Assembly (NCBI RefSeq): GCF_001905465.1
Contig: NZ_LISX01000002.1
Span: forward strand, 309,425 to 373,424
Direction of reading: 5' to 3'
Origin: Kitasatospora sp. CB01950
GTDB lineage: Bacteria; Actinomycetota; Actinomycetes; Streptomycetales; Streptomycetaceae
DNA: 64,000 nt
Below the pieces are notes generated by a model. The model did not search any database, had not been told where the DNA came from, and worked only from the letters and a program-made list of their open reading frames with translations. The translations under genes and the position numbers were made by a program. How positions within the stretch are numbered: the stretch's first letter is position 1; every line of letters starts with the position of its first letter. This document shows, in pieces, positions 14,195 to 41,269 of this stretch.

Positions 14195-14340
14195 GGCGGG
14201 TGCCTCTCGGGGCGTCCCGGTCACCTTTCGGGGTGTCCGCTGCCAGCGACGGCACAGCGGAGGAAGTCCGGTGCGAATCCGGTGCGGTCCCGCCACTGTG
14301 ACCGCGGCTCAGTGAGCCGTGGGAGCCAGGAACTCCGGCC
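14195..14340 (+). ncRNA. Cobalamin riboswitch (AdoCbl aptamer)
   Basis: The conserved core is plain: GAGGAAGTCCGGTGCGAATC, then CGGTCCCGCCACTGTGA containing the B12 box GCCACTG, and the closing GAGCCAGGAACTCCGGCC. Upstream GGGTGCC and paired arms complete the aptamer. Cobalamin binding would repress downstream cobN, the cobalt chelatase subunit, as feedback on the pathway. It points toward cobN only; the divergent cobG operon has no such element in this gap. Confidence 0.93.
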
Positions 14341-14382
14341 GTCCTCCACTGCCCGGGGCGAGGACCCCGAGGAAGGCCTGTG

Positions 14383-37282: not shown

Positions 37283-38014
37283 TCAGCGGGCGGTGGCGGG
37301 CCTGCGGTGCTTGTGCCAGCGGGACTTGTGGAAGATCGGGTCGACGGCGACGACGCAGAGCGCGTGCATCGGGTGTTCGGTGTAGCGCGGCTCGAAGAGG
37401 CCGACCAGGTCGGCGAAGTAGGACTCGCCGCGGCGGTGGATCTCCCGGTCCGTGGCGACGGCCCGGCCGGCGGCGGTGAGCAGGTCGCCGATCCAGAAGA
37501 GGAGTTCGGCGCGGGCGGTGACGACCACCGTGCCGGCGTGCTCGGTGAACCGGGCGGGGCGGTTGGCGCAGCGGCGGTGGACGTCCTCGGGGCGTTCGTG
37601 GGGGCGCGGTGCGGGGGCGGTCGCCGTGAGGGGGGTGGCGGTGCGGTGCATGCGTCGGCGGAGGGCGGGCCAGTCGGAGGGGCGCAGGCCGGTGTCCTCG
37701 CGGGCGATCAGCAGGGGCAGCGCCGGGCTGTCGGAGCCGTCGGAGAGCCGCGGCGCAGCGTCCGGCGGGGTGCTCGGTGGGGCCGGGACGTGCACGGCGG
37801 TGTGCGGGCCGGCGGCGGCGATCCGGAAGAGTGCACCGAGGCGGAGCAGGTCGGCGCGAGGGGCGAACAGGTACCCGACGTGCACCCTGGGCGGGTGGAG
37901 GAAGGTGTTGCGGAGCATGGGGCCGCTGCTCAGCACCCGGTTGAGCCGGTGCCCCTCGTCGCCGACCCGGTGGCTGGTCAGGCGCAGCCGCATCCGGCCG
38001 TCGTTGTCGCTCAT
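37283..38014 (-). CDS. Conserved-looking protein of unknown function
   Basis: A 243-aa soluble protein I do not recognise. It has no signal peptide or membrane segment. Segments that look structured are VGYLFAPRADLLRLGALFRI, FTEHAGTVVVTARAELLFWI and HALCVVAVDPIFHKSRWHKH; a Pro-rich stretch (VHVPAPPSTPPDA) lies in the middle. Codon bias supports a real gene. It sits alone between the DUF3592 gene and the TetR gene on the same strand, 55 bp from the latter's stop. Confidence 0.6.
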   Translation of the reverse strand: MSDNDGRMRLRLTSHRVGDEGHRLNRVLSSGPMLRNTFLHPPRVHVGYLFAPRADLLRLGALFRIAAAGPHTAVHVPAPPSTPPDAAPRLSDGSDSPALPLLIAREDTGLRPSDWPALRRRMHRTATPLTATAPAPRPHERPEDVHRRCANRPARFTEHAGTVVVTARAELLFWIGDLLTAAGRAVATDREIHRRGESYFADLVGLFEPRYTEHPMHALCVVAVDPIFHKSRWHKHRRPATAR

Positions 38015-38069: not shown

Positions 38070-38708
38070 TCAGTCTTCCCGGCGCAGCTGGCGGTAGCGG
38101 AGTTCGAGGCCGTCGAGGAGGGCTTCGAGGCCGGTGTCGAACGCGCCTTGGTCGATGGTGCGGCGGTGTTCGGCGAGGCGGTGGGCGTCGCCGAGGTGGG
38201 GGTAGTCGGCGGTGTAGAGGGCGGCGTCCTCGGGGAAGCCGGCGGCGAAGGAGCCGAGGGCGGAGCCGGTGATGAAGTAGCGCATCAGGGCGCCGATCCG
38301 GGTGGCCTGGCCGCGGGGCCAGCCGGCGGCGACCAGGCAGCCGAAGACGGCGTCGGCCAGGCGCAGCGCGTGGGGGCGTCGGCCGGGGCCCTGGGCGAGG
38401 ACGGGGACGAGGTGGGGGTGGGCGACGAGGGCGGCGCGGTAGGAGCGGGCCCAGTCGTGCAGGGCGGTGCGCCAGTCGTCCGGCGCGTCGAACATGGCGA
38501 GGTCGACCTCGCCCATCACACTGTCGACCACGGCGTCCAGGAGTTCGTCCTTGGTGGCGAAGTGGTTGTAGAGGGACGGTCCGCTGACGGAGAGTTCGGC
38601 GGCCAGGCGGCGGGTGGAGAGGGCGGGCAGGCCCTCGGTGTCGACCAGGGCGAGTGCGGCGGTGACGATCCGGTCCCGGTTGAGCAGGGGGGTGCGGGGT
38701 CGGGCGAT
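38070..38708 (-). CDS. TetR-family regulator, apparent ATC start codon
   Basis: A 212-aa TetR repressor: helix-turn-helix at ~12-50 (LSTRRLAAELSVSGPSLYNH) and a ligand domain with DWARSYRAALVAHPHLVP. The frame has no ATG, GTG or TTG between the upstream stop and the DNA-binding domain. ATC at 38708-38706 stands 5 nt after AGGAGG and is followed by ARPRTPLLNRDRIV, the usual N-terminus of such proteins after Met. A normal start appears only at GTG 38531 or nearby, which would delete the DNA-binding domain. Either ATC initiates, or the base is a mutation or sequencing error. It is divergent from the acyl-CoA dehydrogenase operon and probably controls it. Confidence 0.78.
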   Translation of the reverse strand: MARPRTPLLNRDRIVTAALALVDTEGLPALSTRRLAAELSVSGPSLYNHFATKDELLDAVVDSVMGEVDLAMFDAPDDWRTALHDWARSYRAALVAHPHLVPVLAQGPGRRPHALRLADAVFGCLVAAGWPRGQATRIGALMRYFITGSALGSFAAGFPEDAALYTADYPHLGDAHRLAEHRRTIDQGAFDTGLEALLDGLELRYRQLRRED

Positions 38709-38807
38709 CTCCGCCTCCTGGGGTCGTGGGCCGGTGGGTGGTGCGGGCGGCTCATTGTCTCAGGCGGCCTCTTCCGTGCGGGGCGGGGGCGGGCTACAGT
38801 CGCCGTA

Positions 38808-38826
38808 AAACTTGCACCGCTAGTTT
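38808..38826. promoter_or_regulatory. Probable TetR operator
   Basis: AAACTTGCACCGCTAGTTT is an imperfect palindrome: AAACT and AGTTT arms plus inner GC/GC pair around a central ACC. It is A+T-rich against its surroundings and lies 34 bp before the dehydrogenase start and ~100 bp before the TetR start, as expected for an autoregulated TetR-family switch of a fatty-acyl-type operon. Confidence 0.7.
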
Positions 38827-38859
38827 ATTCGAGTCGTCCGAGTGTCGAGGGGCCGTCGC

Positions 38860-40008
38860 GTGGACTTGGAGCTGACCGAGGAGCAGGCCGCCGTCCGGGA
38901 GTTGGCGGCGGGGTTCGCCGATCGGGAGATCGTGCCGTTCGCCGCCGAGTGGGACCGGGCGGAGTCGATCGACCTGGGCATCGTGAAGAAGCTCGGCGAC
39001 CTGGGTTTCCTGGGCCTGACCCTGCCGGAGGAGTACGGCGGCAGCGGCGGTGACCACCTGGCGTACTGCCTGGTGCTGGAGGAGCTCGGGCGCGGCGACT
39101 CCTCGGTGCGCGGGGTGGTGTCGGTCTCGCTGGGGCTGGTCGGCAAGTCGATCCACGCGTTCGGCACGGAGGAGCAGAAGCGGCACTGGCTGCCGCGGCT
39201 GTGTGCGGGCGAGGCGTTGGCGTGTTTCGCGCTGACCGAGCCCGGTACGGGTTCGGACGCGGCGAACCTGACCACCCGGGCGGTGCGGGACGGCGGGGAC
39301 TGGCTGATCTCGGGCGCGAAGATGTTCATCACCAACGGGACGTGGGCGGATGTGGCGCTGGTGTTCGCCCGGACGGGTGAGCCCGGACACCGGGGGGTAA
39401 GCGCTTTCCTGGTGCCCACCGACACGCCCGGCTTCTCCCGCACGCTCGTTCACGGCAAGTTGGGCCTGCGCGGCCAGGCCACGGCCGAGTTGTCCTTCGA
39501 TTCCGTGCGGGTGCCGGACTCGGCGCGGCTCGGCGCGGAGGGCAAGGGCTTCACGGTGGCGATGGCGGCGCTCGCCAAGGGCCGGATGTCGGTGGCGGCG
39601 GGCTGCGTCGGCATCGCCCGGGCCGCGCTGGAGGCGGCGGTGCGGTACGCCGGCGAGCGCGAGCAGTTCGGGAAGCCCATCGCGCAGCACCAGTTGGTGC
39701 AGGAGCTGCTGGCGGACATCGCGGTGGACGTGGACGCGGCCCGGCTGCTGACCTGGCGGGTGGCCGACCTGATCGACCGCGGGCTGCCGTTCGCCACCGA
39801 GTCCTCGGTGGCGAAGCTGTTCGCGAGCGAGGCGGCGGTGCGGTCGGCGAACAACGCGCTGCAGGTGTTCGGTGGGTACGGCTTCATCGACGAGTACCCG
39901 GTCGGCAAGTATCTGCGCGACGCCCGCGTGATGACGCTGTACGAGGGCACCAGCCAGATCCACAAGCTGCTCATCGGGCGTTCCCTGACCGGGGTCAACG
40001 CCTTCTGA
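38860..40008 (+). CDS. Acyl-CoA dehydrogenase
   Basis: FAD-dependent alpha,beta-dehydrogenase of acyl-CoA thioesters, 382 aa. Family blocks are [43 protein letters not shown]-like [20 protein letters not shown] and the catalytic Glu in [21 protein letters not shown] 38860 (VDLELTEEQ) has GAGGGG 8 nt upstream; a second GTG six codons earlier is less well placed. With the thiolase and ketoacyl reductase downstream it forms a short beta-oxidation-type operon lacking an enoyl-CoA hydratase. A copy of AAGCGCTTTCC at 39399-39409 encodes part of VSAFLV using rare GTA and GCT codons. Confidence 0.93.

Positions 40009-40081: not shown

Positions 40082-41263
<1,182 letters not shown>

Positions 41264-41269
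<6 letters not shown>

Follow-up and report, generated by a model that had tools for sequence, protein, structure and literature searches.

Few bacterial genes with conserved start codons other than ATG, GTG and TTG are named in the reports cited here (infC, sigR, ccpN and cvfC1). One of them, sigR of Streptomyces coelicolor, encodes a sigma factor and begins with GTC in 32 of the 34 species examined, behind an extensive Shine-Dalgarno sequence (AGGAGGTG). Changing this GTC to ATG, GTG or TTG results in overproduction, and repression of sigR by IF3 has been demonstrated (Feeney et al, 2017; PMC5472188). The same report suggests for sigR that a good Shine-Dalgarno may rescue some weak-start complexes, and states that infC, which begins with ATT in E. 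coli, begins with ATC in Streptomyces. IF3 is described as disfavouring weak third-base codon-anticodon pairs (PMC10158994). In Staphylococcus aureus and Bacillus subtilis, ccpN, which encodes a repressor of metabolic genes, has a conserved AUA start and a strong Shine-Dalgarno close by; its output was measured at about 10–30% of that from AUG, with non-standard starts in S. aureus giving about 10% of an AUG reporter in poor medium and ccpN, when the medium was rich, reaching as much as 30% (PMC13009471). A B. subtilis rny-lacZ fusion carrying an AUC mutation was still expressed, at a much lower level (PMC10303841). For lacI of E. coli, the weak GTG start of a repressor gene raises the basal expression of a catabolic operon (PMC11445065).

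Here, we describe a TetR-family repressor gene from Kitasatospora sp. CB01950 that, judging from a comparison of related genomes, very probably has ATC as its real start codon, fixed once and then kept. The window, i.e., the whole stretch of DNA that was analyzed, is 64,000 nucleotides long, and the features relevant to this gene are given below by their positions in it.

38070..38708, minus strand: TetR/AcrR-family repressor gene with an ATC start; 212 codons and a stop, Pfam TetR_N and TetR_C_1 domains, orthologs in 70/70 genomes of the genus.
38706..38708, minus strand: ATC start codon; at the homologous position, the remaining 58 Kitasatospora genomes have ATG (53) or GTG (5).
38714..38719, minus strand: Shine-Dalgarno sequence AGGAGG, 5 nt before the ATC and in the same place in 12/12 ATC species.
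38753..38759, minus strand: conserved GA(C/G)AATG block, probably the -10 region of a promoter; its ATG lies in differing frames among the ATC species.
38808..38826, no strand assigned: palindrome AAACTAGCGGTGCAAGTTT, the presumed operator, between the divergent TetR and dehydrogenase genes.
38860..40008, plus strand: acyl-CoA dehydrogenase gene, the presumed target of the repressor; divergent from and adjacent to the TetR gene in 70/70 genomes.
40082..41269, plus strand: thiolase gene, downstream of the dehydrogenase gene and possibly in the same operon.

Like sigR, the TetR gene encodes an actinobacterial regulator and has a non-standard start codon with C as its third base, an extensive Shine-Dalgarno sequence (here AGGAGG) and a start codon that is kept across species. 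The two differ in that sigR is a sigma factor gene with GTC across most of the Streptomyces examined, whereas ATC at the TetR gene is confined to one Kitasatospora clade, and in that repression by IF3, demonstrated for sigR, would apply to the TetR gene by analogy. The layout of ATC behind AGGAGG is shared with infC, where the spacer is 4 nt; however, infC takes part in an autoregulatory loop, whereas the TetR gene would be a target of IF3 only. The likeness to ccpN lies in the combination of a metabolic-gene repressor, a conserved non-standard start and a strong Shine-Dalgarno nearby, although the codon there is AUA rather than AUC and the reduced output has been measured for ccpN. To our knowledge, CcpN is not a member of the TetR family. 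The consequence proposed below for the TetR gene, higher basal expression of a catabolic operon, is the one known for lacI, although the GTG of lacI ranks among the standard start codons, as a secondary one. Two other features of the window were recorded: a reading frame of 243 aa downstream of the TetR gene (37283-38014, minus strand), which matches no family of Pfam or NCBIfam at E 0.001, and a cobalamin riboswitch (14221-14353, plus strand; 36.4 bits, over the Rfam gathering score).

The TetR frame is open from a TGA at 38762-38760 to the stop ending at 38070, and its earliest in-frame ATG, GTG or TTG is the GTG at 38531, which is codon 60 when counted from the ATC. Read from the ATC, the frame would encode a protein beginning IARPRTPLLNRDRIV. 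The TetR_N domain (PF00440; 44.7 bits vs a cut-off of 24) matches residues 31–77 of the predicted protein P0001, corresponding to codons 14–60 of the ATC frame; therefore, initiation at GTG 38531 would cost the protein this domain, which binds DNA. The initial annotation had argued that ATC is the sole start that both has a ribosome-binding site and keeps this domain, and this was borne out, with no canonical in-frame codon before codon 60. The ligand-binding domain TetR_C_1 (PF02909) was recognized at 63.8 bits (cut-off 21), and the best-matching solved chains are those of the class A tetracycline repressor and SimReg2. The protein lies below the equivalog cut-off for TetR proper, the tetracycline-resistance repressor (NF010319, 91.7 bits vs 265).

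Orthologs of the gene were present in all 70 Kitasatospora genomes searched, and the count of start codons took in all of these, with none dropped. The homologous codon is ATG in 53 genomes, GTG in 5 and ATC in 12, the last being the genomes closest to the window in their TetR protein. Because the ATC agrees in 12 genomes from separate assemblies, we ruled out a sequencing error. The ATC species grouped as a single clade whether the tree was built from the TetR gene minus its start codon (SH-aLRT 92), from the divergent acyl-CoA dehydrogenase by itself (SH-aLRT 100) or from the two jointly (SH-aLRT 100), all three being quick trees without bootstrap; therefore, a single change explains all 12 cases. 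As the nearest other species carry ATG or GTG, their common ancestor with the clade probably had one of these two codons, and ATC can be reached by one base change only from ATG. The initial annotation had implied a single change from ATG to ATC and had proposed looking at the codon in close relatives. This comparison, with ATG or GTG at the same position in 58 relatives and ATC common to the 12-species clade, upheld one ancestral substitution of a standard start, while leaving GTG as a candidate for the codon that was replaced. The accompanying idea that the change was recent, or a partial loss of function, did not hold up, as 12 genomes share the ATC, the frame is intact in all of them (209–212 codons) and the DNA-binding domain is constrained (see below).

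Among named genomes, the ATC is carried by K. griseola and K. cheerisanensis, by three strains assigned to K. phosalacinea and by one other Kitasatospora strain; a pattern search of named genomes gave 15 hits, comprising 6 orthologs, which were not added to the 12 because at least four of them equal an already counted contig in length, and 9 sequences that were unrelated by translation. A search of 394 genomes of the family for the N-terminus behind an ATH start gave 12 matches, all within the genus. However, the N-terminus itself is rarely recognized outside the genus (behind NTG, it was found in 4/136 sampled non-genus genomes vs 52/64 genus genomes), so this search says little about the spread of such starts beyond Kitasatospora. 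Plasmid records contained 7 partial matches, at 65–73% identity. Codon 3 of the gene (38700-38702, minus strand) is CGA in 11 of the 12 ATC species vs 5 of the 58 others, which mostly have CGC, and is thus a further change near the start that marks the ATC group together with some other species.

Judged by its evolution, the stretch right after the ATC is translated, and purifying selection acts on the DNA-binding domain about as strongly in ATC species as in ATG species. For codons 2–59, pN/pS was 0.158 in the ATC clade vs 0.189 in the ATG rows (from pairwise sums, so that the counts are not independent), and within the ATC clade 27 of these codons show no change, 23 differ only by synonymous changes and in 8 the amino acid differs. 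Parsimony changes per position in the clade came to 2.08 at -24 to -12, a figure that takes in misalignment from indels, 0.18 at -11 to -1 and 0 in the ATC. The invariance of the ATC is not statistically significant on its own, because 29 of the 52 fourfold-degenerate sites in codons 2–90 are also unchanged within the clade (mean 0.67 changes per site); selection on the ATC codon itself is not demonstrated.

The sequence AGGAGG at exactly 5 nt was found in 12/12 ATC rows, 4/53 ATG rows and 3/5 GTG rows (7/58 for all non-ATC rows). Because the change to ATC arose once, this association amounts to one event and not twelve, and AGGAGG at this spacing could predate the change as a precondition for it. 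Two kinds of compensation for a weak codon were not supported. The mean Shine-Dalgarno pairing energy of the ATC species (-11.2) is not clearly stronger than that of their relatives (ATG -10.4, GTG -12.5), and the mean folding energies around the start (-25 to +25), -12.5 for ATC, -10.9 for ATG and -14.6 for GTG, lend no support to weaker folding. A possible hairpin across the ATC (GGCG/CGCC), spotted by eye in the window, was dropped, as it is not kept in L002.

We considered whether translation might begin elsewhere. The ATG within the GA(C/G)AATG block, which would give an N-terminally extended repressor, is present in 12/12 ATC species and in frame in two of them (L004 and L007, at -39 or -42). 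In the other 10 it is out of frame, both ways, and its distance from the ATC ranges over 38–47 nt, covering all three frames. An upstream in-frame start common to the clade was thus ruled out, since indels shift the frames between species; L003 has an in-frame GTG at -144. Moreover, several ATG-start species (L023, L025, L026, L027 and L030) read AATC for AATG in this block, so it behaves as expected of a promoter element, and a simple promoter scan gave no sigma-70 consensus hit. We regard initiation at this ATG as highly improbable. A start downstream, yielding a protein without its DNA-binding domain, or the decay of the gene into a pseudogene, would agree with the GTG that is the first canonical codon after the ATC in all 12 ATC species (codon 60 or 64), which automatic annotation might choose. 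The intact frames, the purifying selection on codons 2–59 and the conserved palindrome argue against this, and no Shine-Dalgarno sequence was found in the 18 bases preceding the GTG, making such a start or decay very unlikely. Some other nearby non-standard codon could also be used, e.g., the CTG at codon 8, which is invariant in 12/12 ATC species; however, it is equally constant in the ATG and GTG species (57/58) and lies 26 nt past the AGGAGG, and we give this option hardly any weight. Setting aside the upstream ATG, the downstream GTG and the CTG leaves ATC as the one candidate that the clade shares and that has a ribosome-binding site.

In Kitasatospora, infC itself, which served as an internal control for the use of ATC as a start, reads AGGAGG, 4 nt and ATC, followed by codons for Ser-Thr-Glu-Pro-Arg-Ile-Asn, in 20/20 genomes (L118-L137). 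Of the three bases of AUC, two can pair with the initiator anticodon CAU. In the same number of genomes, all 78 matches to an initiator-type anticodon stem, i.e., putative tRNAs found with one exact stem pattern, carry CAT, and this search of 20 genomes gave no initiator tRNA with an anticodon reading ATC. There were 2–3 such stems in each of the 12 genomes of the ATC clade vs 3–8 in the 8 others searched; few initiator tRNAs might affect the use of weak starts, and draft assemblies may under-count them. As a second control, sigR told little in this genus, as its pattern had matches, putatively sigR, in 2 of 15 genomes.

On the other side of the intergenic region, all 40 rows listed, out of 70, have ATG or GTG at the start position of the dehydrogenase, and in many of these 40 the palindrome lies within about 30 bases of it. 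In its strict 19-bp form (AAACTAGCNNTGCAAGTTT), the palindrome is found in 69/70 genomes of the genus and is one base off in the 70th (L061). Allowing up to 2 mismatches, it occurs at a single place per genome in 8/8 genomes searched. This is what the operator of a repressor that acts locally and controls its own gene should look like, and the palindrome probably serves as such. In several ATC species (e.g., L003, L006 and L032), a GGAAGA block and the -10-like block are set apart by insertions of tens of bases (38760-38775, minus strand, and the corresponding places in relatives), which move the palindrome away from the presumed promoter of the repressor.

The explanation that we favor is that the ordinary initiator tRNA would start the repressor at ATC (AUC), aided by the perfect AGGAGG 5 nt upstream. 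The substitution took place once, in the ancestor of the 12-species clade to which K. griseola, K. phosalacinea and K. cheerisanensis belong, and was kept thereafter. As IF3 would discriminate against AUC, synthesis of the repressor would be low and IF3-dependent, as with infC, sigR and ccpN. With less repressor, the basal expression of the divergent acyl-CoA dehydrogenase gene would be higher and the gene would be easier to induce. That ATC is the start and has a lower, IF3-sensitive yield is, in our assessment, highly likely. Given sigR, ccpN and lacI as precedents, a lowered amount of repressor is plausible, and species of the ATC clade should then hold less of it and express the dehydrogenase more readily.

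The ATC may also be the start and yet be selectively neutral: a change that did almost no harm, was tolerated thanks to the strong AGGAGG, has persisted by inertia and plays no part in regulation. This overlaps with the explanation above, as the yield may drop without consequence, and the two are not shares of one whole. The single origin of the ATC is consistent with neutrality, as are the invariance of its third base, matched by the 29 of 52 unchanged fourfold sites, and the AGGAGG at 5 nt in seven non-ATC relatives, which may be older than the change. Against it, weak starts lower output in the cases where this was measured (PMC5472188, PMC13009471), and switches of AUG to codons other than GUG and UUG are very rare: among 61,358 reconstructed ancestral AUG starts, Belinky et al list 2 changes to CUG and 1 to AUU, i.e., 3 in all, and the term AUC is absent from their text (PMC5622118). 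We consider neutrality possible but on the unlikely side.

Conserved non-standard starts are a small known kind, to which the ATC of this TetR gene adds a case that has apparently been reported nowhere before. A literature search, with most subscription journals outside its reach, gave no report joining Kitasatospora and a noncanonical start codon, and none on this gene by title among the matches listed. Because 58 genomes of the genus retain the earlier state of the start, the replacement of a standard codon by a non-standard one can be located on a tree and is directly testable. We also put forward, tentatively and as a rather doubtful proposal, that the ATC is an adaptive coupling, by which, in one Kitasatospora clade, repression of a beta-oxidation-type operon (acyl-CoA dehydrogenase and thiolase) came to depend on IF3 and on ribosome status, within an IF3-controlled set that includes infC; the gene may be one visible case among actinobacterial regulators whose AUC starts are concealed by misannotation. 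Comparing close relatives can reveal starts that gene callers limited to ATG, GTG and TTG cannot call. For this clade, the comparison argues for a functional gene, whose output may be held low, and against both a broken gene and a sequencing error.
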